A stretch of DNA of 40,016 nucleotides, from the IMG/VR virus record IMGVR_UViG_3300046007_009977, positions 1 to 40,016 of that record; one strand, given 5' to 3'. Source of the DNA: a virus. Position 1 is the first letter of the stretch, and each line of letters opens with the position of its first letter. Under the pieces are notes generated by a model. The model made no database searches, had not been told where the DNA came from, and saw only the letters and a list, made by a program, of their open reading frames with translations. Below are positions 2,814-22,034 of the stretch, piece by piece. A program made the position numbers and the translations under genes.

Positions 2814-3728
2814 ATGGGATTAGTAGATAGAAATAAATTAGAAAAGCCTAATATAGAGATCTCTCACTATTTAGGTGTGGTCATAGACAATAAGGATCCG
2901 GAGTTTAAAGGTAGAGCTAAGGTGAGAGTTTTTGGTGTCTTCGATGAACTAGAAGATGGTGATCTCCCATGGGCTTATCAAAGATTTGAGCAAAGCTACG
3001 GGCTTGGTGGAGGATCTGGTAGAATGTCTGTGCCTAAACTTGGCTCTGTTGTTCATGTGCAATTTAATAATGGAAACTATTATAGTCCAGAATATAAAGC
3101 AGCACAGGAATTGGCTCCAGATCTAATCGATGAGATAAGAGCTAGTTATGAAGGGGCGCACTCTATAATATACGACGGAATAGAAAGGCTTAAGATGTAC
3201 TATACTGTTGAAAAGGGATTAGTTATAGACTTAAAAGAATCTAAGATTATAATAAGAAACGATAACTCCATACTTATTACACATGCGGATGACACTGCTT
3301 CTATAGAACTGAAGGGCGGAAAGATAACTAAGTATGCAGATCAGGAAATAGAAAACACCGCAATAACAAGGATCAAACACAGTTCTGAGGAAGTTTGGAT
3401 GGATGGCAAAACAACTAATCTTGGACATTCTCCTCTTTTTTCTGCTGTTTGTGCAGAGCCATTATTTGACTTTCTTAAAAAATTGGCTATATCAGTAGAT
3501 AGTAAAATGCCAGCTACACCAGGAGTTAATTCAACATTAGCTTCTAGCTTCGAACAATTAGCAACAAGTCAGACAGTTAGGGTAACAAGAGAAAATAGTC
3601 CAGATTTCCCTGTTGTTCCTGCTAATGCGGATTCTCCTGTTGGTATACCTAACACAGGTACATCAGGAACATCTGGTACTTCCGGAACATCTGGTACTTC
3701 CGGAACCAGTGGAATAACGGGAGTGTAA
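2814..3728 (+). CDS. gp5-like baseplate hub / central spike protein, no lysozyme domain
   Basis: 304 residues. The N-terminus has the OB-fold signature of the T4 gp5 family (KVRVFGVF at 36-43, then DLPWA at 50-54, then KLGSVVHVQFNNGN), which in T4 sits on the gp27 trimer below the tube. T4 gp5 then carries a lysozyme domain; here the chain passes directly into short alternating strands (IIIRNDNSILITHADDTASIELKGGK) typical of the trimeric beta-helical spike. There is no room for a lysozyme. The end is low complexity: six Thr-Ser-Gly tripeptides, then ITGV. It lies in the tail-tip cluster, one base before the next ATG. The OB-domain call is firm; the spike extent is inferred. Confidence 0.82.
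   Translation: MGLVDRNKLEKPNIEISHYLGVVIDNKDPEFKGRAKVRVFGVFDELEDGDLPWAYQRFEQSYGLGGGSGRMSVPKLGSVVHVQFNNGNYYSPEYKAAQELAPDLIDEIRASYEGAHSIIYDGIERLKMYYTVEKGLVIDLKESKIIIRNDNSILITHADDTASIELKGGKITKYADQEIENTAITRIKHSSEEVWMDGKTTNLGHSPLFSAVCAEPLFDFLKKLAISVDSKMPATPGVNSTLASSFEQLATSQTVRVTRENSPDFPVVPANADSPVGIPNTGTSGTSGTSGTSGTSGTSGITGV
3660..3713 (+). repeat. (Thr-Ser-Gly)6 coding repeat with 18-bp direct repeats
   Basis: Six consecutive codon triplets for T-S-G end the hub protein. Within them the 18-mer GGAACATCTGGTACTTCC occurs twice in tandem (3666-3683 and 3684-3701), which would allow slippage and change of repeat number in steps of 6 residues. Confidence 0.85.
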
Positions 3729-6700: not shown

Positions 6701-8826
6701 GGGTTCCCCTTCCAATGATATGGACTATAATTCCCCCTATTCTTATACCTCTTCCTTTTAATTTGGGAATGCTTGTGATATTTATACCTTTCATAGGAGG
6801 ATTTATGCCTACTCCATTAGTTTATCTAAAAGAATTTATCACTGGTAGTTCTTTATTTTTAACCGGAATTAGAGGACCTAGATTTATTCCAAGAAAATCT
6901 GACCCGGATACGAAAGATCCATTTGAAAAGATCAAGCAGATTCTATCTTTTGGTGTACCTGATAAGTTAATACCTCTTCCCGGATTTGGCCTGGATGATT
7001 TAGATTCTTCAGCTAGGGTTTTAACTGATATAAAAAGTAACTTAACTAAAATATTTGATAGTGTTCCCCCTCCTGGAAACATGCAGCAGGTAAGAGACAT
7101 ACAAGAAAAAGAAAGGGAGCTTAAAAGAAAAATAAGGGAAAAGGAAAAGGATTATAAAAAGAAGAGTGCTTTATTAGATGAGAATCCCCCAGATTTATCT
7201 GCTGAAGAGGAGCAATTAAAAGCTTTGGTTAATCAAAGAAAGGATGCACTAAAAACCACTATAAAAGATTATCTTAAAAAAAGTATACCAGATCCAAAGT
7301 CTATACATTTTCCTAAAGATAAGGACAAATTAAAGGTTGATATACCAGGGATTGTGAAATCATTAAGAATCCTTAAAGAAATGAGAGCTAGCCTTGTCCC
7401 AGTGGACTGTCCTAGCTTTGTAAACTTTAAGGATGAAATGAGGGAGGTTCTAAAACTAATGAAAATAGTTTGTCCTCCTATTTATGCAATAGAAAATTTT
7501 CAGGTAGCTAATTCGAGTAAAATATTTTTAAGAAACAATAAGGACCCTAGATTGATGACGGATAATGAATTTAATATCCTAGTTAAAGAGATAAGAGGAG
7601 CTTCCCTTGTGATAGCTAAAGTGATTCTCTGGGGAAATAATTTTTCTGTAATAAAAAAAGTCAGGGATGGATCATTCTCTTTGGTCGAAAAAAGTGAATT
7701 TGAAGGAGCTTTTAAATTCCCTGAAATAAAAATAACTAACTCTGCACCTAAAGCGCTCAACTTTGCTAGAAAAAAGAACCCCATTATAGAAGCTATGAAG
7801 TTTCGTATAATGGAAGGCATGGCTAACATAGAATATTCAAGAGAGGATTTTTCTAGATATGTTAGATATGACGGAGAAAATCCAATATTAGTTATAAGGG
7901 TAAAGGATTTAAAAATATTAGTTTCTAAAAAGATAGGATTAAGTAAGGCAGGTCCATTTGATCCAGTAAGACCATTAGATCAAGAAGAGCCTTTAATATC
8001 CAATTTTCCTTTTCCTAAGGGGCCTTTATCTTGCCTCAGTTCACTTAATGGAGGATTTGGTAATGCTGTTGCTGCTTTTGAGCTACCCACAGTTTTTCCG
8101 CCCAAGCAAGATCAGTTAGGACAAATCCCTGGATTAGGTGGCATCATTCAAGTTAGTATACCTGGGTCTGTTATAAAAGATTTTTTATCGGCTTCACTTG
8201 AAAAATCATTAGATGCTGGGATATTAGAAAAAACATTTCCAGAGATTGATGATGTAAATTCCCCGAAGTTTTTAAATATGGATCCTTCAGATATACAAAA
8301 AATGACTAAGAATTTAGTTACTGGAGCCATAGATCCTTCGTCTAAAGACGTACCGCCTTTTTTAAATGTGATTAAAACCCCAGTGATTCCTAAAGCAAGA
8401 CCCACTGATATGATAGAGCAAGCTTTAATTGGTTTAGGAGCTCCTCCACCAGCTAGGATAGTTTATAGTTTGTTCTGGGCATATTTTAAGAGCTTACCTA
8501 AAACACCTCTGGCTGATTCTATTATGCTCACTAAAGTAACTGCTTCCGCTGAAATTTTATCTAAGATCCCTTGGCCTCTTGCAGTACTAATAGGTAGGAA
8601 TATATTAAACATTATAAACCCAATAGCAATGAATGATGACCATCCAGTTTGGAGAAGAATGAGTTTAAAGAATACATACTATGTTGTTTACTTGGATGAA
8701 TTCCTAAGGAGCGCAGCGGATGTGTCGGGACTTTTTAAATTTTTCTTAGGCTCAGCAGATCCTGTGTATCCAATACCAGAATTACCAACTGAACTAAAAG
8801 AAACTAAAAATGTAAAAAAATACTAA
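3730..8826 (+). CDS. giant baseplate/tail structural protein, unrecognised family
   Basis: 1698 residues, family not recognised. The N-terminal ~300 residues are acidic with helices. A helical segment at about 330-440 includes RNLEEILYHYEPIYEYQKSL. A six-cysteine cluster lies at about 873-925 (ENCPPVCC and DCPTMFQRCWW). A very hydrophobic, Pro-rich stretch at about 960-1040 (PPAFIPIPFPNP, IIPPILIPLPF) follows. A charged coiled coil at about 1115-1190 (EKERELKRKIREKEKDYKKK) precedes a mixed C-terminal half. The ATG follows the hub stop with one intervening base (TAATATG), so the two are probably translationally coupled. Location next to the hub suggests a tail-tip or baseplate component; a tape-measure role is less likely given the position and proline-rich content. 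Confidence 0.7.
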   Translation: MESIESRIDSLLGKDFSKMSTEEILSTISGGQSFNIPYEDLQSKEGFEKELDKSQKEVDNVIKSLSPQKPPIPMNEIEDLACKYEGDDLYSRIIIETIKREDSNLYNDLLNSDEYKKNSPISENDLGVTVSGGDLGFSKKIPSDGITKYLKRKDSKFLEKINEKIFDNMDPLILGKPSNSGTRKKRALNILGFEIPLEFIMNGTQIVHVKIGGDEIDLNSALDKINSILKKQNENSKPCDFDGIDENTSSERIDGFDANFFPDGDDPIADDECLPGIPEDPITGDPILTKNNFDESLDEFCDPPVYEFKRDEVPDPVPPTVDPKDIDACLSSALDKSKKLEEDIKVLARWQMIERNLEEILYHYEPIYEYQKSLAENWRNRVPVNEGGDPSDFDIGIQILTYRDQLEAYKKELKDQTTKYENDKSLFLQNNNIFTEDLFILSVYDTELSSPELEVLFNNQINANKSPITYDESTQSWPVSGGVSKFIENVEDIRNIMIESNFIDLIQSKIDDTQSLLNASIQTLSQKRGSQVTIADVEKSFLPSSTVSSDLYGQGNGSLDINDRVFKSPAQLFLSTESYAYDSYGYEFLEALKKFSVRFNTNFNKPLGELEFKLSFVTDYGSPLPYKKVKKPSKITFSGSSTEPLKEANEPDEEKIKIGNEYAGNGGLLSGYLPEYLRSYQFIKINNIKTGFPDVAKFYDFIEKIIKTSDSKESIVEKIVEDRGTLYGQLIEKSSSTWLFFSAEERGDNDSRDPAKSRPSSFTQDGEPTPVFTDFYSNFKTKWNQKYLQNKQAYITPALEDLKTKARRAGEGLGKTLPTSDVIGIRIFENYSDITKKYENLKEALLLASQKIAEISESISPENIEKRFSDIKCAGAQSPPDAGDKENCPPVCCGEAGSDFKTDNFLLSSPPSSDCPTMFQRCWWKQFSKDLTKVGMLPYPNGLPPIEDPKYFLTPGPAVRLGLKYWPVGYLPPAFIPIPFPNPIDGNPYIRVPLPMIWTIIPPILIPLPFNLGMLVIFIPFIGGFMPTPLVYLKEFITGSSLFLTGIRGPRFIPRKSDPDTKDPFEKIKQILSFGVPDKLIPLPGFGLDDLDSSARVLTDIKSNLTKIFDSVPPPGNMQQVRDIQEKERELKRKIREKEKDYKKKSALLDENPPDLSAEEEQLKALVNQRKDALKTTIKDYLKKSIPDPKSIHFPKDKDKLKVDIPGIVKSLRILKEMRASLVPVDCPSFVNFKDEMREVLKLMKIVCPPIYAIENFQVANSSKIFLRNNKDPRLMTDNEFNILVKEIRGASLVIAKVILWGNNFSVIKKVRDGSFSLVEKSEFEGAFKFPEIKITNSAPKALNFARKKNPIIEAMKFRIMEGMANIEYSREDFSRYVRYDGENPILVIRVKDLKILVSKKIGLSKAGPFDPVRPLDQEEPLISNFPFPKGPLSCLSSLNGGFGNAVAAFELPTVFPPKQDQLGQIPGLGGIIQVSIPGSVIKDFLSASLEKSLDAGILEKTFPEIDDVNSPKFLNMDPSDIQKMTKNLVTGAIDPSSKDVPPFLNVIKTPVIPKARPTDMIEQALIGLGAPPPARIVYSLFWAYFKSLPKTPLADSIMLTKVTASAEILSKIPWPLAVLIGRNILNIINPIAMNDDHPVWRRMSLKNTYYVVYLDEFLRSAADVSGLFKFFLGSADPVYPIPELPTELKETKNVKKY

Positions 8827-8882: not shown

Positions 8883-9992
8883 ATGAAAAGCAAAAATTTT
8901 AGTTGTTTCGAATACGAACTTACTGAAAGAGAAAAACTACAATCGATGTATGACCAGACGTTCCCAGAGGAGTCTAAAAATATATCAGGTAAGGATATAC
9001 AAAATAACACGTCAGAAAAAATCGTTATCACATCTGTTGATAACGAGAAAGGGGTCGCTTTAGGAGAGACCTCTTTTGGACAGACCATTATAATAGACAC
9101 CAAGAAGGAAGAGAAGAGTATGAGAAAACTCGGATACCCTTCGATGGAGGTTTCTTATGGGCAGATCTTGGATGTTGTAATTACAAAAGATGCAGGAGGT
9201 TCCTTTAATGGCTCTGTTTCTGCTGGATACGAAAAAGCTCTTAAGAGAGAACTACACAGATCTATTAAAGAAGAAGATTGTGCATTTAAAGTTAGAGTTA
9301 AGAATGTTTGTAACGGAGGATTCATGGTGGATCTATCCGGTATAGAGTGTTTCTTACCTGGAAGCTTAGCTGCTGCAAACAGAATAATGAACTTTGCTGA
9401 TTATGTAGGAAGAGACCTAAATGTTATGGTTGAGGTCTATGATCAGAAGCGTGACATCTTTGTTGTTTCATTTAAGAAGTATTTGAGAAAAATAATAGAC
9501 AAAGAAGTTCAGAATCTATCTTTTTCTACTAAATATGAGGGAACAGTTACAGGAGCTTCTAATGGCGGAGTTTTTGTTGAGTGGAACGAAATTTACACTG
9601 GTATAATTCCAATGGATGATTCTAATAGAGAATCATTATCAGTCTATAATGCTGGTGACGCTGTGGAATTCTATGTATTAGACATAAAAAATCCTCAAAG
9701 AATAACCTTATCAGTTACTCAGCCTAGTGAAAAAATGAAAAATGTCCAAGAGATGAAGAATACTTCATCAGAAGTTTTGGGGGAAAATACCGATTTGAAA
9801 ATATATAAAGGAGAGGTTACTAAAATTAAAACCTTCGGTGTTTTTGTTAAAATGGAAAACGGATTAACTGGACTTATCGAAAAAGAAAGATTAGTAGGCT
9901 CTATTAAAGAATATGAGGTTGGAGAATCGGTTGATTTTTCTATCTTGAGTGTAGACAGTTCTACTCTCAAAATACAATTAATAGAAAAATAA
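8883..9992 (+). CDS. S1-domain (OB-fold RNA-binding) repeat protein
   Basis: 369 residues. Three S1-like repeats are visible: about 131-200 (VKNVCNGGFMVDLSGIECFLPGSL), 214-285 (YEGTVTGASNGGVFVEWNEIYTGIIP) and 306-369 (YKGEVTKIKTFGVFVKMENGLTGLIEKE). Each has the G-x-V-x-x-I/A-x-x-x-G-x-F/V-V core followed by a G-hydrophobic-hydrophobic strand. The first matches the GGF-VDL-GI-GFLP pattern of ribosomal protein S1 rather than PNPase or RNase E. Residues 40-125 may hold a degenerate fourth copy. S1 domains bind single-stranded RNA and bacterial S1 helps ribosomes capture mRNA. It lies 56 bp after the giant tail gene and 3 bp before the next gene. A structural OB-fold role in the virion is an alternative. 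Confidence 0.8.
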   Translation: MKSKNFSCFEYELTEREKLQSMYDQTFPEESKNISGKDIQNNTSEKIVITSVDNEKGVALGETSFGQTIIIDTKKEEKSMRKLGYPSMEVSYGQILDVVITKDAGGSFNGSVSAGYEKALKRELHRSIKEEDCAFKVRVKNVCNGGFMVDLSGIECFLPGSLAAANRIMNFADYVGRDLNVMVEVYDQKRDIFVVSFKKYLRKIIDKEVQNLSFSTKYEGTVTGASNGGVFVEWNEIYTGIIPMDDSNRESLSVYNAGDAVEFYVLDIKNPQRITLSVTQPSEKMKNVQEMKNTSSEVLGENTDLKIYKGEVTKIKTFGVFVKMENGLTGLIEKERLVGSIKEYEVGESVDFSILSVDSSTLKIQLIEK

Positions 9993-9995
9993 AAA

Positions 9996-11438
9996 TTGGC
10001 TAATTTACTCAGTAATGATTTTTTCTACTCTGCTAAATTGGGTTTTGAATTTGAGTTCTATAGCAACTTAAACAGAAACGAAATAGCATATGATCTGGGT
10101 AAAGTACTCGGTAAGAAAGTACTTGTCTTTAAAAAGTACCACTCCAATTTTAAACCAACTAAGGATATATTTAAGTTAGAGCCAGATTATTCTGGTGGAT
10201 CTAAAATGGTAGAGTTTATTACTGGACCGCTTCCTTATTTTGAAGCGATAGTAATACTAATAAAAACCCTTAAGTGGATAGACGAGAATGGTTACACAGA
10301 TAAAAAATGTGCTTTCCAATTTGGTATGGATATAGACACTTCCATTTACCCTGATGTTCCTCCTATGTCACAAATGAACATACTCAAGTTTATCCTTGGG
10401 TTTGATGAAAATGTTGTCTATAAAAGATTCCCTGATAGAATGGGATCGCTATATGCTAAGTCTATAAAAAGAATAGTACCATCCAATAAATTTGTTGATC
10501 CTAGTAACATCTCATTTATTGACAAGAATCTTTTTGATGTTCCGTTAGAGAAGAATATGGGGATTAATTTCCTGAAGCTTCCTGATGGATATTTTGAAGT
10601 TAGGTATCTAGGTGGGAAGGATTATCAGAAAAGGTACAATGCCTTAAAGGAAGTTATTGATTATATTATCACATACACCGTAGATGTTTTGAGATTTAAT
10701 CAAGGATTTACTGAAAATGATATTAAAATCCTTAAACTTTTCCTAAGCGAAATATACAAGAATTCATCCACCTTTATAGATGCTGAAACCTTTCAAAAGA
10801 ACTACCCGCATTTAAATGTGATGATTGACCTTAGGTCAGATCCACAAATACTAAAGGCGTTCTTCCTTAATGTAAGGGAAGTTCTATATGATTTAATTGT
10901 GGATAACAATATAAAGGAGGGTATAATTAATTACGATAGTAATCTTGGAAAATTCCAAATCAAGGATGTTAAAACACAAAGAGCTTATCTATTAAAGGAT
11001 TATGATATACTCGAAAGTGAAATATCTGGAAATATTTTAAACTGTAGGATTTTTACTTCCAAGCTTAATGATTGTACAATTGAGGAGTGTGATTTAATCA
11101 CGAATAACGAGATAAATCGATCTAAGGTAATGGTATCAGATCTTTACTTCACAAACACAGTTCACGACACTTATATAGACAATAAGGACAAAGAAATAAA
11201 CTGCGAAGTCTTTGGTGGAATAATTAGATCTGGCTTCATTGGAAAACTTGCTACAATCTCGCCTGAAACAGAAATAGTTAAAGATGGAGATGATGATAAG
11301 AAATTAAAAGGAAGTTCCAAGAAACAGCAATTCCCTAATAGAAACGAAGGAGAAGCACTTTCTAAGCCAGTGAGATTTGGAAATAATAATTCTAAGCCTT
11401 CTGGTATTCCTGGGATTAACTTCAAATCAAATAATTAA
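9996..11438 (+). CDS. amidoligase-like (glutamate-cysteine-ligase fold) protein with beta-helix-like C-terminus
   Basis: 480 residues from a TTG start 3 nt after the S1 gene stop; the TTG is needed because the first motif is at residues 16-21. Seen: GFEFEF (16-21), DYSGG-K-EFITGPL (64-79), CAFQFGMDID (105-114) and a YFEVRYLGG segment near 199-207. This order (E-x-E, D-x-S ... E, histidine-strand region, E-x-R) is that of the GCS/amidoligase superfamily, ATP-dependent COOH-NH2 ligases. The usual His of the third motif appears replaced (FQFGMDID), so activity is uncertain. About residues 340-425 contain short repeated turns (NCRIFTSKLNDCTIEECDL) like a right-handed beta-helix or pentapeptide repeat, then a disordered Lys/Asn tail. 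Substrate unknown; protein or cell-wall modification would be inference. Confidence 0.65.
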   Translation: MANLLSNDFFYSAKLGFEFEFYSNLNRNEIAYDLGKVLGKKVLVFKKYHSNFKPTKDIFKLEPDYSGGSKMVEFITGPLPYFEAIVILIKTLKWIDENGYTDKKCAFQFGMDIDTSIYPDVPPMSQMNILKFILGFDENVVYKRFPDRMGSLYAKSIKRIVPSNKFVDPSNISFIDKNLFDVPLEKNMGINFLKLPDGYFEVRYLGGKDYQKRYNALKEVIDYIITYTVDVLRFNQGFTENDIKILKLFLSEIYKNSSTFIDAETFQKNYPHLNVMIDLRSDPQILKAFFLNVREVLYDLIVDNNIKEGIINYDSNLGKFQIKDVKTQRAYLLKDYDILESEISGNILNCRIFTSKLNDCTIEECDLITNNEINRSKVMVSDLYFTNTVHDTYIDNKDKEINCEVFGGIIRSGFIGKLATISPETEIVKDGDDDKKLKGSSKKQQFPNRNEGEALSKPVRFGNNNSKPSGIPGINFKSNN

Positions 11439-11443
11439 TTAAA

Positions 11444-12223
11444 ATGACTGAAGCGGATTTAATACAGGAAATAAGAGATGATATATCTCACTCTTGTGCA
11501 TTACCATACAACTTAAATGAGCAAGAAATTAAAAGGATTATAAAAAGAGCTAGGGCTTATTTTTATGATAATTATCAATATGCTGTAGAGGATAGGATAT
11601 TCGTATTAGGGAAAGAGCTTTTTGCTACCGCTTCATTTAAAGCCACAAGGCAAATACAAATGCCATCGTGCGTTAGATCTATTTATGAAGTTAGAGAAGT
11701 AAACGGATCTGGCTTAATTGGTACACCAGATAAGGATTTTGGTGATTCTAAATTATTAGGATCAGAACTTATGCTTTCTCCTTTTGCAGGGGATAATCTA
11801 GTTTATAGAACTGTTCTATATTCATTTTTCGATCTTGCTAAAGCTTATCTATTAGAAACATATGCTTTTAACTACAACAAAAACACAAAGAGGCTAACCA
11901 TCTTAGGTAGAGATCCAAATAGAACATATCAAACCGCTGGCGGATCTTCTAGTACTCTTTTTAGTGGTGTTGATGTAGGAGTAAGAGCTTTTATTGATAT
12001 ACCAGAAGAAAATCTATACGATGATGAATTGTTTGTTAGGTTCTGTCTAGCTGAAGCCAAAATAAATATTGGTAGATTACTAGGTACATTCGAATATAAT
12101 CTCCCAGGTGGTGTTAGAGTTAATTATAGCAACATCCAAACAGCAGGAACCACTGAAAAGGCTGAGATTATTCAAATGATAAAAGACGAGAACACACCTT
12201 CATACTTCTTGCAGTGGAATTAA
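11444..12223 (+). CDS. neck protein, T4 gp13-like
   Basis: 259 residues (T4 gp13: 309). The order of features matches gp13: an N-terminal helix pair (LIQEIRDDISHSC, then NEQEIKRIIKRARAYFYDNYQYA) like gp13's LKDVILRRLG / QIYDCIQRALELYGEYH; a strand region ending in PSCVRSIYEVREV; a YRTVLYSFFDLAKAY helix followed by FNYNKNTKRLTILGR, like gp13's tail-proximal segment ending NEQLKVMG; and a C-terminal helix with LPGGVRVNY, like gp13's LPGGVTIDG. In T4 gp13 with gp14 caps the head-tail connector. This comparison is from memory, not a search. It sits 5 nt after the amidoligase-like gene and 38 nt before gp25, away from its usual gp14/gp15 neighbours. Confidence 0.68.
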   Translation: MTEADLIQEIRDDISHSCALPYNLNEQEIKRIIKRARAYFYDNYQYAVEDRIFVLGKELFATASFKATRQIQMPSCVRSIYEVREVNGSGLIGTPDKDFGDSKLLGSELMLSPFAGDNLVYRTVLYSFFDLAKAYLLETYAFNYNKNTKRLTILGRDPNRTYQTAGGSSSTLFSGVDVGVRAFIDIPEENLYDDELFVRFCLAEAKINIGRLLGTFEYNLPGGVRVNYSNIQTAGTTEKAEIIQMIKDENTPSYFLQWN

Positions 12224-12261: not shown

Positions 12262-12633
12262 ATGGCAAGATTTTCTGAAATTTATCCAAGGAATCCAGAT
12301 GATCCTAATTACAAAGAGGGACTTTTACATACCGATGATGAGGTTGAGATCCTTATAGGTATGATAAAAAACTGTATGCTTTCTAGACCAGGAGAGGTTC
12401 TAGGAGATCCTTATTTTGGTATAGATCTGGAGGGTCTTATTTTTGATCTTGAGGTGGATGAAAAAACATTAAATAGAGCCATAGAATTGCACTTAATAAC
12501 ATATGTGCCTCTTGCTTATTCTCTTTTTAGTGTTGATTTTAAGATTGGATTTTTTAAAGGAGAAACAAGAGATGCTTGTGTTATAGATTTTGCAATAAAA
12601 GGTAACCCTATATTGGGAATTAAAATATTATAA
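12262..12633 (+). CDS. baseplate wedge protein gp25 (TssE/gp25 family)
   Basis: 123 residues, close to T4 gp25 (132). The family's diagnostic core is present at residues 42-53: R-P-G-E-V-L-G-D-P-Y-F-G, in which the conserved Arg, Glu and Pro/Phe-Gly connect the wedge to the sheath. The domain then follows the usual pattern of an LIFDLEVDEKTLNRAIELHL helix and closing strands. gp25 joins gp6 and gp53 in the inner wedge and nucleates the sheath. The gp6 gene follows after one base (TAATATG), as expected for interacting partners. Confidence 0.9.
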   Translation: MARFSEIYPRNPDDPNYKEGLLHTDDEVEILIGMIKNCMLSRPGEVLGDPYFGIDLEGLIFDLEVDEKTLNRAIELHLITYVPLAYSLFSVDFKIGFFKGETRDACVIDFAIKGNPILGIKIL

Positions 12634-12634
12634 T

Positions 12635-14332
12635 ATGGATTTATTATCGAAAAATAGAGCAAAGATATCTGATTTATTAGCACAGACTTTTGAGCTAATA
12701 CAGGCAAGATATGGAATGTCTAATCAGCTTTTTACTGTTGCCTCTGTTTGGGGACAGATAATATTTGTTCTAGATAACCTTTCACAGTTTATATTGTTCT
12801 TTATAGAAGATTCAATAACAGAATTAAACATAAACACTGCAACAAGGGAATCATCCATATATGGGTTAGCAGCTTTAGCTGGACACAATCCCACTAGAGC
12901 TATATCTGCTAAAGGTGAGGTTGTTATTAAATGGAACGGTAAAGGATTTGAAGATATTGGAGGTAGTGCAGTTCTTATACCTAAGAATTCTGAGATCAAA
13001 TGTGTAAATAATGGTAAAACATACCTTCTTAAATTTCCACAAGAGTACACGAGATTAAACCTTGACGGAACTTCTAAACTTATTTGCTCGGTAGTCGAAG
13101 GAACCCTTAATGTCAACCAATACACGGGAAATGGAGGAAAGTTACAGAGCTTTAATATTTCATCTCGTGGTACTTCAAGTATAGAAAATTTTGAGATCTA
13201 TGTTAAAGTTAATGGAGTAGAGTGGAAAGCATACGATTCTTTATATGATATCCCTAGAAACGGACTAGGATATATGGTAAAGAGTTCACTTATATCGGGT
13301 ATCGATCTTTTCTTTGGAACTAGTGATTTTGGTTTACCTCCTGCTCCTGGATCTATTATAGAGGTAACTTATCTTGAATCTTCTGGTTCTTCTGGTAATA
13401 TTCTAGTAGATGATTCATCACAAGCTATATTTAGATTCGATTCAGATGGAACGGATTTATTTGGGAACGGAGTAACTTTAGCAGACGTTCTACAAATATC
13501 TTGTACAATTGCTCCGCAGATGGGAGCAAACCAAGAGCCAGTAGATTTAACAAGACTTATAGCACCTAAAACATCTAGAAGTTTTGTTCTTGCAAATCCA
13601 ACAAATTACATAACTTTCTTTGAAAAGTTTGGACAGTTTTCTATAATAGAAGCTTTTACTACCTTCGATGATCAATACATTGATGATGACAACGTCATAT
13701 ATTTAATACTTGTACCAAATATCCAATTAACCCTGAAGAGCAATGAGACATATTTTGATATCCCTGTTTCTAGATTTAAACTAACACAGCCCCAAAGAGA
13801 TAGAATAAATCAACTTCTAGATGAGAGCGGGCAAAAGATAGTTACGACGGAGGTTAAAATATTAGATCCGGTAATAAAAAAATATGTAGTTAATATTTCC
13901 ATTAGTATTTTTGAAGGAAACGATCCTGATACTATAAAATCACAGATAGTAAACACTATGAGTAACTACTTCTTAAATATTAGAAGGAGAGATAAAATAC
14001 CAAGATCGGATTTGATCGCAGCAGTTGAGGAAATAGAGGGAGTTGATTCAGTAGCACTATATTTTGTTGGTGAAGAAAATGAAGCTGCAAAAGCACAAAA
14101 TCCAAATTCACCCGAAATCGGATTCGATGAGTTTGGTGATATAGTAATGGGTAAGGATGAGGTTGTTATTATCTCAGGAGGATGGGAAGATAGGAACGGG
14201 ATATTCTATGATCTTGGAGCAGGAATGACTACCCTTTCATCTATTAATATAGATGTTAGAGCTATAGTTCCTTACACATATAATTCTAGAGTTAATAATA
14301 TAATGAAAAGCTCGCTAAAAACAGGAAACTAA
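12635..14332 (+). CDS. baseplate wedge protein gp6 (gpJ-like)
   Basis: 565 residues (T4 gp6: 660). The N-terminal helical part (FELIQARYGMSNQLFTVASVWGQIIFVLDNLSQFI) followed by TATRESSIYGLAALAGHNPTRA and a beta-rich middle (GEVVIKWNGKG) is the arrangement of gp6/P2 gpJ. The family's C-terminal domain is seen at about residues 385-480 (KYVVNISISIFEGNDPDTIKSQI, RRRDKIPRSDLIAAVEEIEGVDSVALYF). gp6 dimers form the continuous inner ring of the baseplate. Placement immediately after gp25 supports the call. Confidence 0.88.
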   Translation: MDLLSKNRAKISDLLAQTFELIQARYGMSNQLFTVASVWGQIIFVLDNLSQFILFFIEDSITELNINTATRESSIYGLAALAGHNPTRAISAKGEVVIKWNGKGFEDIGGSAVLIPKNSEIKCVNNGKTYLLKFPQEYTRLNLDGTSKLICSVVEGTLNVNQYTGNGGKLQSFNISSRGTSSIENFEIYVKVNGVEWKAYDSLYDIPRNGLGYMVKSSLISGIDLFFGTSDFGLPPAPGSIIEVTYLESSGSSGNILVDDSSQAIFRFDSDGTDLFGNGVTLADVLQISCTIAPQMGANQEPVDLTRLIAPKTSRSFVLANPTNYITFFEKFGQFSIIEAFTTFDDQYIDDDNVIYLILVPNIQLTLKSNETYFDIPVSRFKLTQPQRDRINQLLDESGQKIVTTEVKILDPVIKKYVVNISISIFEGNDPDTIKSQIVNTMSNYFLNIRRRDKIPRSDLIAAVEEIEGVDSVALYFVGEENEAAKAQNPNSPEIGFDEFGDIVMGKDEVVIISGGWEDRNGIFYDLGAGMTTLSSINIDVRAIVPYTYNSRVNNIMKSSLKTGN

Positions 14333-20500: not shown

Positions 20501-21366
20501 TTAAGCTCCTATCGACTGGAAAGCTAATGTGGATGAAAATGTGTGGAGGAGCTTCCGGGGATACCGCTCATGATGTCGAAAGTGATTCCGAAGAGAATGT
20601 TTATATAACAGGGTCATACACTTCCCCAGCTTACTTTTCTCCTGAAGAGATAGAATCCAGAGGAGGTACTGATATTTATTTGACAAAGTTTAATAAGGAT
20701 GGATTACTTGTTGATATAGTAACTGCAGGTGGGATGAATAACGACTCAGGTGCGGATTTAGTTTTAGATAGTGAAGAAAATATTTATATAACGGGATACT
20801 TTGAAGGAGAATCTGAATTTTCTCCTTATGTTGTTCTTTCCCCTCCAGGAGGTAGCTTAGATGCTTTCTTAGGTAAGATACCTAAACAAAGATTCCAGAC
20901 CGGTTTAAAAATAGGAGGGGTTCAATCATGGTTGGGCTCACATTCTTGGTCTTGGAGAGAGGATAAATTCTACCAGGAGGAATTTGAAATACCGATAGCA
21001 ACAACAATATTTATAAACCCTATAGATTCATTAATACCTGGTAAGAAGGATCATATATGGACTTTAAGAGACACTGAGAGCAATAACGTTATTGTTAAAA
21101 TCAGAAAAACTCCTTATTTTATATGGACCTTCGTAACACCAGGATTCTATACTATATCTTGTGAATTACAAGACGCAAATGGTAACATATATGAAACTGA
21201 GCACAAGGGCAAAATAAGAGTAATAGATCACAAGACTCCTTTTGCTGGCGACTTAACACCTGAGGTTGTTAATCCGAGTGACTATCTGCTTAGATCAATA
21301 TACTACGATAGGAAGGATTTTGGATTTCCTCCGTACTCAAGGTTTGATATACAAGCTGATGTTTAA
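14581..21366 (+). CDS. giant gp7-position baseplate wedge protein with two beta-propellers and PKD-like domain
   Basis: 2261 residues. It occupies the slot after gp6 that gp7 (1032 aa) has in T4. The first ~1100 residues are the likely wedge part, with YKSLFNAIKFFGYYDLRVKEYWLNI near 246-275 and several W-D-rich segments. At about 1203-1536 are two-component-regulator-type propeller repeats (DGDIWVTGEDVVKFDG, NDDKWIGI, WIATDNGLSRFNGVDFKNY, GHKWIGTSSSLVYWDHTRW). At about 1674-2104 are about seven SBBP-like blades (ENVYITGSYTSPAYF, GTDIYLTKFNKDG, ENIYITGYFEGE). A PKD/Ig-like domain follows at about 2135-2225. The propellers probably project from the baseplate periphery for binding. The gp7 identity is by position and a weak sequence feel; the propeller calls are stronger. 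Confidence 0.72.
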   Translation: MAFQNLLFFNKKGDQYNFKWNGDYWEGSVLFEKVSERLFEIEHIFVIEKFLDLSSDIKYGFPHSYGVSPGSPVWRTRWESNYDGRTDVSSTIYTYELGVDGELDAPILVKATNVEFYPEVVVGDTISSPEGIIISSDINPASMQINIALNSNTEGIYDRTLILEDYTDPNNPVTIMSINFHGEVEGEDSRLAVILGNFGRSFNPEDALIVRDSDIKEEFPDYEIINKKRKELLLTGETIFPYLGSYKSLFNAIKFFGYYDLRVKEYWLNIKKDDADTLTPLQQNQTILNQLSQPNIEGQSKLELISSLIKDENEGKFKQVEVYGKNKDGTFGLKKQLDKIFPSKSYKKTSLFGLFYDINKVVEDQDEDQYGYPIVEDSFLFSPEEVLIKLFGLKERLKNDYLPLNARIIDITGEGIYFNIYKTRGWTDSVDISEIKGGIEVDFSVFPNEGYVEDLRPFYIKPNQSGILYPAVNGAEPGISYYGNTVDPYSFFQKYPKSAIPDLESAIVSFYDDQKAGVMPKFLGDGDYDPPGYKLFSDGSDYVFPAGCPIIIKNNTFNLSWEEISGSWTSFDTTITTTNLQIASYTSTASSNPGGNLQTATSTDTFTLPTTFPSNLTINIGTGNNWFSTTSPQIILVRIESADNPGNLVLGYCSSGDYNTVTGDLYVEFMYTRGSGEYSNWKVTPTNLGFSSYVFDYYENFVHSNGFYSWDRIPYLDFYEIEWTIYKDDDDKPYFFQITGDLPGLDTLVHFLPYDGNYNVKCRVWDTLNSISLGIKRGVVKVAKRGIELNTITRFRESETYNWDNMPLKWDSYFSQWLFPVENTNKIIDISQFIQSYPEYSNNFEEGQQCEVLTKLPEIKSTSIFDVGVDEISISTIASNYNGSGYDLATVTTLTPHGYTSGSNVWIYDSTGAPYGQYPITVTGTTTFQIPEIEVTPISGGYVYGSGTVKIIADSVEIASCNFQGDLNATCSLLYSSINSSPINPKYKVINLIDSSVNGYKTFTLQAPNNSGALWNGKPVIIQVTGSILASPSSTTFSGGFNETEAYVPYDFGSLPKKEMKYWGTKRLSWDTFEDFAFEKAYAHTWDMYDYHNDWLGGFDLYSLQYGDRVRVSGDSLGMVFTETDSPGNNYLDLSEAADQLNDSIETNIDRFDYIVRGFSELPNNFYINSNPISPDLSTNPGPKNITSSFYKIPAYSPVLFYPTGIAWDADGDIWVTGEDVVKFDGLNYTTYDSSNSVMPGVSTPTNCIKIDRNDDKWIGINNNLVPLVKINDKDPTKSIAYSVSDFIDNSGNPVSPITASSINAIEINPQSGDVFAAFTCNGSPSFDGLLFYDSHAKSWHLYTTNNSELPSDNIRDLKLEHYGINKWYLWIATDNGLSRFNGVDFKNYNMNNSGLPDSDLYSIEIDKLGHKWIGTSSSLVYWDHTRWAVWNNGTNPEISLGRFANITETGNANIWFTIDVGTSPGNSELYFFDGYFFTKVLYRNDGVTLINPCNGLNGKVLLSAPWKTIKNGETTYPKNLIFATEDGEIGKLDYVIPHIHASSKIADLKGWDFIYHETSTPLPSIEYIYNSGVGASQLGFNFIVGPFNDNITLNSDYTRPVMPNVDRYSWYKPVWQRYSIDRLKDQFPSLNLDHVFLYAPLRDIITGKATKEPYWKNSQIERIAQKKSRDLFENFEWVITLGNSNPDQGVKVTVDNEGDIIAIGDFTGTIFMGEVNNIGTQDVYLNTLDQGVYVAKYNKGGVLQWARAIGSTSPQGPIYGRSVITDENGNIYVVCDNSLTGFIEINKYNSDGDSLNIINIPVTPSQFIGDIKADKYENVYICGGFEGTLTLGAFSLTSVGQDAGFVAKLDSTLSFVWAKQLSDSNYSKANEIAILKEEYLYLTGVFDTQVNLGTIQLTGVGNPDMFVAKLYTGDGTCLWADSFAYNSSTSFSDTSVCIDPKGHVLVTGSFEGTIEIEGTQISSFPGTTDIFLIKLLSTGKLMWMKMCGGASGDTAHDVESDSEENVYITGSYTSPAYFSPEEIESRGGTDIYLTKFNKDGLLVDIVTAGGMNNDSGADLVLDSEENIYITGYFEGESEFSPYVVLSPPGGSLDAFLGKIPKQRFQTGLKIGGVQSWLGSHSWSWREDKFYQEEFEIPIATTIFINPIDSLIPGKKDHIWTLRDTESNNVIVKIRKTPYFIWTFVTPGFYTISCELQDANGNIYETEHKGKIRVIDHKTPFAGDLTPEVVNPSDYLLRSIYYDRKDFGFPPYSRFDIQADV

Positions 21367-22034
21367 CTAGTATATTCTCTATAAACATCTAGTATTTCTG
21401 GAACTATAGGATGTCTATGGTTTTTCTTGAGTGTAATAACTTTAACCCCACTAACTCTAGATGCTATAGTATTAAGAAAGTCCAATCCCGATTCTTTCTT
21501 ATTTTTTAAATCTATCTGCGATGTATCACCACATATGATAAGTTTGGAGTTAACACCAAGTCTACCAAGAACCATTTCCATCTGACTCATGGTTACGTTT
21601 TGTGCCTCGTCAACTATAACGCATGAGTTTACTAAAGTTCTACCTCTCATAAAAGGAAAAGGAAGTATTTCTATTATACCCTCAGTGATAAGTTTTTGTA
21701 CCTTATCCTTGTCATAGATCATTTCTAAGTTAGCATAAATAGGTGCTAACCATGGATCCATTTTCTCTCTAAGATCGCCTGGAAGAAATCCTATATCTTC
21801 TTTAGCAACCGTTGGTCTTGTTATCACCAATCTTTCAATCTCTCGGTTAAAAAGAAGATCAAGAGCTATCTGAACTGCTAATAAGGTTTTACCAGATCCT
21901 GCAGCTCCTTTTAAAACACTGACTGGTGTCTCAAGGATTATATTCTTTGCCTCCTTTTGTTCCTCGTTTAATGTGAGTTTAAATTTGATTGGGTTTTTAG
22001 GTTTTCTCTTTTGAGTCCAATTACTTCCTGTCAT
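21363..22034 (-). CDS. phoH: PhoH-like ATPase
   Basis: 223 residues, the only minus-strand gene. Walker A is GAAGSGKT (43-50), Walker B is CVIVDEAQN (138-146), followed by the helicase-like motif IICGDTSQID (166-175) and HRHPIVPEIL near the end. The TRPTV and GFLPGDLREKMDPWLAPIY segments are characteristic of PhoH. Length matches the phage PhoH core without accessory RNase or KH domains. Cellular function is unsettled (RNA metabolism or RNA unwinding has been proposed); phage copies are common in large myoviruses. The start ATG (22032-22034) has an A-rich leader and no Shine-Dalgarno. Its stop overlaps the convergent giant gene by 4 nt. Confidence 0.95.
   Translation of the reverse strand: MTGSNWTQKRKPKNPIKFKLTLNEEQKEAKNIILETPVSVLKGAAGSGKTLLAVQIALDLLFNREIERLVITRPTVAKEDIGFLPGDLREKMDPWLAPIYANLEMIYDKDKVQKLITEGIIEILPFPFMRGRTLVNSCVIVDEAQNVTMSQMEMVLGRLGVNSKLIICGDTSQIDLKNKKESGLDFLNTIASRVSGVKVITLKKNHRHPIVPEILDVYREYTS

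Follow-up and report, generated by a model that had tools for sequence, protein, structure and literature searches.

An amidoligase-like protein with a pentapeptide-like beta-helix encoded in a phage baseplate gene cluster

The window, i.e., the whole 40,016-nucleotide stretch of DNA analysed here, comprises positions 1 to 40,016 of the IMG/VR virus record IMGVR_UViG_3300046007_009977. A gene for an amidoligase-like protein lies on its plus strand, immediately downstream of a gene for an S1-repeat protein and upstream of genes related to tail and baseplate components. The features of this region that are relevant to the analysis are the following:

2814–3728, plus strand: gp5-like baseplate OB protein (PF04717, 24.5 bits with a cut-off of 23.8; phrog_37871, E 4e-14)
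8883–9992, plus strand: protein with three S1 RNA-binding repeats, directly upstream of the amidoligase-like gene (PF00575, E 2.8e-19)
9996–11438, plus strand: amidoligase-like gene, 480 amino acids, predicted to belong to the GS/GCS superfamily and to end in a pentapeptide-like beta-helix (open reading frame, AF2 model, Foldseek, homologues)
9996–9998, plus strand: TTG start codon of this gene
11444–12223, plus strand: 259-amino acid protein with a distant match to the head-tail adaptor Ad2 (phrog_211, E 4.6e-7)
12262–12633, plus strand: gp25-like baseplate wedge protein, a weak match (phrog_261, E 0.03, and position)
12635–14332, plus strand: gp6-like baseplate wedge protein (phrog_219, E 2.6e-26)

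The original prediction placed the start of a 480-amino acid open reading frame at a TTG codon 3 nucleotides past the stop codon of the S1 gene. This was confirmed by the open reading frame list and by the codons of the homologues. The start codon is credible because 30 of 33 close homologues have TTG as the aligned codon (two have ATG and one has ATC). When the first 225 residues were compared with those of relatives sharing 84–92% identity, dN was 0.035–0.07 and synonymous sites were near saturation (pS 0.65–0.82); dN was lower in the catalytic core than in the middle region. The open reading frame at 9996–11438 is a real gene under strong purifying selection. Some additional characteristics of the surrounding genes were recorded. 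In the clade of the window, the gp5-like protein terminates in a collagen-like GTSGTSG/GATGATG tail, the C-terminus of the Ad2-like protein is unusually fixed (QWN in 93 of 110 homologues), and a PhoH gene (21363–22034, minus strand) is located inside the plus-strand virion cluster.

A search using the window protein as query recovered 77 loci, and an alignment-based scan of IMG/VR identified at least 527 stretches that encode relatives. In a phage collection, full-length relatives were found in six records of uncultured huge phages, five of them distinct (W01–W05), with genomes of 462–735 kb and proteins 30–37% identical. No close relative was found in any cultured phage among 50,697 records; the sole cultured-phage match, from Salicola phage SCTP-2, was weak and partial (E 9e-3). 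The hosts of Mahaphage genomes larger than 634 kb have been placed in Bacteroidetes (PMC7162821), and one contig with a relative, L165 (CAIWBA010000291.1), is filed in a Bacteroidetes MAG. The carriers are probably huge phages that infect Bacteroidota. The DNA of L165, which includes homologues of both the amidoligase and the gp5-like gene, may belong to a phage instead of the host.

The location in a baseplate cluster, also part of the original prediction, was borne out by reciprocal synteny. The recurring order is gp5-like gene, a large protein, S1 gene, amidoligase, Ad2-like gene, gp25-like gene and gp6-like gene. The nearest upstream homologue of a window gene was the S1 gene, at 200 bp or less in 135 scored loci and farther away in 9, and the nearest downstream homologue was the Ad2-like gene, at 200 bp or less in 151 loci. 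In the reverse direction, 77 loci were fetched with the gp6-like wedge protein and 74 of them contained the amidoligase; the exceptions were two contigs that end before the gene (L265 and L273) and one locus that is rearranged or partial (L292). The amidoligase is a core gene of this lineage, linked to baseplate genes. In L079 (LR756500.1), the Ad2-like and gp25-like genes are about 8 kb apart, with around twelve open reading frames between them (12.1–20.8 kb).

In most loci, the S1 gene immediately precedes the amidoligase, the start of which is coupled to it, and the enzyme could be a partner of the S1-repeat protein that acts on the host ribosome or on translation factors, for example by aminoacyl addition to a ribosomal protein. 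Ribosomal proteins are known targets of RimK-type enzymes. S1 and S21 are also encoded by huge phages, which redirect translation with them (PMC7162821). However, giant genomes of the Mahaphage type have their strongest S1-repeat genes far from the amidoligase, at more than 80 kb in W02, W03 and W05 and at about 48 kb in W04 (in W03, another S1-domain protein, 646 amino acids long, is encoded at about 23 kb), while baseplate-type genes are still near it in W03–W05. Within 10 kb of the amidoligase of giant phages, gp5-like/g858 genes were detected in L081 and L083, and Ad2/gp25 genes in L082; near that of L080 there was no homologue of the screened window genes. Since the S1 gene becomes unlinked while virion genes stay near, the durable association is that with the virion genes, and the S1 partner is separable from the amidoligase. 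A ribosomal component, one of the targets originally suggested, lost ground with these results, and we consider an action on the translation machinery improbable. In W05, about 19 kb separate a bS21 gene from an S1-repeat gene (positions near 296 and 316 kb), which suggests a translation cluster apart from the amidoligase.

The window protein alone matched no Pfam family at E ≤ 1 or at E ≤ 10, and nothing useful was obtained from NCBIfam, PHROGs or PDB sequences. Its fold was modelled using AF2. The full-length model had a mean pLDDT of 84.7, and a model restricted to residues 1–236 had a pLDDT of 89.8 and a pTM of 0.88. All 12 Foldseek matches of this domain model to the PDB at E ≤ 1e-3 were GS or the bifunctional GCS-containing GshF, and the full model added E. 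coli GCS and pentapeptide proteins. These are the only solved folds that match the catalytic domain at that threshold, and they share the GxExE and ExR motifs with it, but the window domain is smaller and about 10% identical. Because the Foldseek TM does not exceed 0.49, the predicted likeness to GS and GCS is at the level of the superfamily and is not close. In the Foldseek viral library, proteins named as amidoligases dominated the matches (for instance Atu_ph07, E 1.4e-10). The model, the Foldseek matches and the profile evidence bear out the GCS/amidoligase-like fold that had been anticipated: Foldseek finds the GS/GCS superfamily, and the presumed nucleotide-binding residues are not all gone.

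Comparison with Amidoligase_2 (PF12224, curated cut-off of 22 bits), proposed originally as a check, gave a divided answer. While the window protein by itself produced no match, the cut-off was passed by four relatives that are 34–41% identical to it: L165 (38.8 bits), L076 (33.3 bits), L075 (27.2 bits) and L161 (22.5 bits). Using hhalign, the profile of the window's own clade (the Q clade, described below) alone matched cellular Amidoligase_2 with a probability of 92% and E 7e-7, the alignment being confident over the first 53 or so columns only. By the strict test, the window protein is outside PF12224, and its family has other members inside. We class it as a divergent member of the GS/GCS superfamily of carboxylate-amine ligases, close to Amidoligase_2.

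Conservation was scored on 100 distinct homologues, down to about 28–30% identity. The first 225 columns include 25 that are invariant or nearly so, compared to 3 among the 105 of the middle part and 2 among the 100 of the C-terminal part, so the motifs are not a product of chance. The motifs, all on the plus strand, are the following:

10041–10058, plus strand: G16-F-E18-F-E20-F (GxExE), presumed metal ligands on the first core strand (residues 13–23); G16, E18 and E20 invariant in the 100 homologues
10173–10199, plus strand: K60-L-E-P-D64-Y-S66-G-G68; K60, D64, S66, G67 and G68 invariant
10212–10229, plus strand: E73-F-I-T76-G-P, with E73 a presumed metal ligand (strand 71–75); E73 and T76 invariant
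10317–10331, plus strand: Q108-F-G110-M-D112, a derived form of ancestral H-x-N-x-S according to the homologue rows and the tree
10437–10469, plus strand: R148 to K158 (R148 and Y153-A-K-S-I-K158), presumed nucleotide/phosphate-binding basic residues; R148, Y153 and S156 invariant or nearly so
10551–10568, plus strand: K186-x-x-G189-x-N191, invariant
10596–10625, plus strand: E201-V-R203-Y-L-G206 to Y210, the GS-type ExR (strand 200–206); E201, R203, Y204, G206 and Y210 invariant

The order of motifs in the original prediction stood for G16-FEFEF, D64-x-S66 and E201-x-R203, but the element given as E-x-G-P is actually E73-x-x-T-G77-P78. Among the ordered motifs of Amidoligase_2, GxExE, DxS, E..P and ExR are invariant and HxNxS occurs in 12 of the 100 distinct rows. 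In the AF2 model, successive predicted core strands carry E18/E20, K60, E73, Q108 and E201/R203, an arrangement that is expected for a GS/GCS pocket.

Residue 108 is histidine or glutamine, with no third state seen in the 100 homologues. Twelve divergent rows have H-x-N-x-S, and the other 88, among them that of the window, show Q-x-[G/S/N]-x-[S/D]. The H and Q states need two label changes on the tree, only one of which is forced by the starred branches, and a single origin of the change is possible. The H-x-N-x-S of the divergent rows resembles the H-x-H-x-S of GS, the first histidine of which binds metal; therefore, the clade of the window, with QFGMD, has a changed site. The presumed metal/ATP histidine appears to have been replaced by glutamine in this clade, which would leave it with a modified active site.

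These replacements raise the question of whether the protein is a dead enzyme of amidoligase descent that serves as a purely structural component of the baseplate, at least in the Q108 clade. The clade-wide change of H108 to Q, those of N110 to G or S and, in six rows including that of the window, of S112 to D, as well as the obligate place among baseplate genes, are consistent with this explanation. Nonetheless, E18, E20, K60, D64, E73, R148, E201 and R203 are invariant or nearly invariant within the clade, and a scaffold would need none of them; the sole replacement at position 108 is glutamine; and, as indicated above, dN is lower in the core than in the middle region. Since the remaining pocket residues are all fixed, an altered but working enzyme is favoured over a dead one, which we regard as unlikely, although the least so of the alternatives considered here. 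Judging from conservation, the window copy likely has catalytic activity. The ligase activity originally proposed agrees with nearly all residues of active-site type, which are invariant, and not with the conserved histidine of HxNxS.

The remainder of the protein includes two features:

10920–11240, plus strand: beta-ladder or pentapeptide-like domain, residues 309–415, with invariant N312 and R411 (AF2 strands, PDB profile, Foldseek)
11286–11435, plus strand: low-complexity tail, residues 431–480, probably disordered (pLDDT about 30–35)

Strands of high pLDDT run to residue 415 in the AF2 model. The profile of the C-terminal part matched 5dra (E 2e-4), MfpA and AlbG, and Foldseek also returned MfpA and AlbG (2bm6, probability 0.94; 2xt2, probability 0.93). 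The C-terminal beta-helix, which had been read from the sequence, is supported by these strands and by both kinds of match to pentapeptide proteins; a right-handed square beta-helix, the form of the pentapeptide-repeat proteins, is a candidate for this ladder. Pentapeptide_4 was found in relatives with a best E of 4e-6, always under the curated cut-off; when ten relatives were scanned singly, the best scores were 27.1 bits for Pentapeptide_4 (cut-off 38) and 17.7 bits for PF00805 (cut-off 20.2). Unlike the pentapeptide-repeat proteins MfpA, AlbG and Qnr, the window protein has a short and degenerate repeat that is fused to a ligase. The presence of GCS in the same superfamily would also fit a metabolic gamma-glutamyl ligase that produces a small molecule, but core status, a site in a virion cluster and a beta-helix fusion are atypical of an auxiliary metabolic gene, and no pathway genes were noted adjoining the amidoligase. 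This function is very improbable.

The closest described phage amidoligases, those of the RIO-1, LUZ24, PaP3, tf, phiEco32 and CW02 type, belong to a peptidoglycan-modification cassette together with an ATP-grasp protein and a glutamine amidotransferase (PMC5498523; UFV-P2 in PMC3890496). By analogy, the window enzyme could be an amidoligase of peptidoglycan stem peptides that modifies the host cell wall, acting either at a late stage, to counter superinfection, or at entry, in a local manner. Elsewhere in their genomes, phages of the window clade do encode an AsnB-like amidotransferase as well as a RimK-like ATP-grasp protein. Each of the 19 Q-clade contigs with sufficient upstream sequence had the AsnB-like gene, at about 17–45 kb from the amidoligase, and the RimK-like gene was near the AsnB-like gene or far from both. 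These genes are suggestive of a larger amide-bond toolkit in the phages of this clade, a correlation that is confounded by phylogeny. However, the AsnB-like gene was found in none of seven H-clade genomes or contigs, and all but one of the seven tested lacked the RimK-like gene, yet they keep the amidoligase. Furthermore, the podovirus genes form a cassette among early or metabolic genes, whereas the amidoligase described here is a single core gene, locked to the baseplate cluster and fused to a beta-helix; a linked cassette (ATP-grasp, GATase, cyclotransferase) was not found at the amidoligase, where the conserved neighbours are virion genes. Modification of the host wall is unlikely, slightly more so than a dead enzyme, but both are serious alternatives.

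The AsnB-like gene is next to an opposite-strand RimK-like gene in G005:C1 at about 170.8–173.3 kb (L205:5745-7175, plus strand, and 7178-8662, minus strand), and equivalents of the pair exist in G007, G208, G209, G211, G212 and G226. The one copy of the RimK-like protein that was scanned has a Zn_protease/RimB-like C-terminal fusion. The AsnB-like enzyme was also considered as an ammonia feeder that would explain Q108. This idea is not put forward here: the enzyme has its own Asn-synthase domain, is encoded some 17–45 kb away, and its distribution may reflect one phylogenetic event.

We propose that the gene encodes an amide ligase that modifies a tail or baseplate protein during assembly and uses its beta-helix as a docking module, a reading to which we assign a probability of about 45%. 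It is favoured because of the combination of core status, linkage to virion genes, an invariant pocket and a beta-helix of a binding type. According to this proposal, an ATP-dependent carboxylate-amine ligase of the GS/GCS superfamily would probably be expressed late, together with the baseplate proteins, and most likely be docked onto a baseplate or tail component by the pentapeptide-like beta-helix. There it would form an amide, an isopeptide or one resulting from the addition of an amino acid or ammonia, at a carboxylate side chain or the C-terminus of a tail protein as the tail is assembled. The window clade would do so with a modified active site, in which HxNxS became Qx[G/S]x[S/D]. A small neighbour with a Pup-like C-terminus (conserved Glu/Gln), a candidate substrate, was not found beside the gene. 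The narrower proposal, in which a ligase devoted to tail assembly would weld or cap baseplate proteins by amide (isopeptide) bonds, with a GS-type active site guided by the beta-helix and with HxNxS changed to QxGxS in one clade, is doubtful.

Members of Amidoligase_2, including the phage proteins of Atu_ph07, Salgado, LAh_9 and phi14:2, share with the window protein the predicted fold and the motif order GxExE, DxS, ExxxP, (H)xNxS and ExR. They differ from it in that the window protein has QFGMD in the place of HxNxS, an extra helical segment, the pentapeptide-like beta-helix and the disordered tail, and is encoded by a core gene of a baseplate cluster. The Atu_ph07 paper reports virion proteomics, and its main text does not mention the amidoligase. 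What is new here is a member of the superfamily that is located in a baseplate cluster, is fused to a beta-helix and has an altered HxNxS. In the literature searched, no amidoligase was described as part of a baseplate cluster or as a fusion with pentapeptide repeats, which is not proof that there is none. To our knowledge, there is no phage tail whose assembly requires an ATP-dependent amide ligase, and the literature searched names no such tail.

The switch from histidine to glutamine in one clade is a natural comparison for the role of this histidine in the superfamily. A ligase that nearly every examined genome of an abundant freshwater lineage encodes in its baseplate cluster, and that is conserved in genomes of up to 735 kb, would point to an undescribed post-translational step in the assembly of the contractile tail or in entry. 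It suggests that building or using the tail involves the chemical modification of a protein in these viruses, a step unknown from the phages studied so far.
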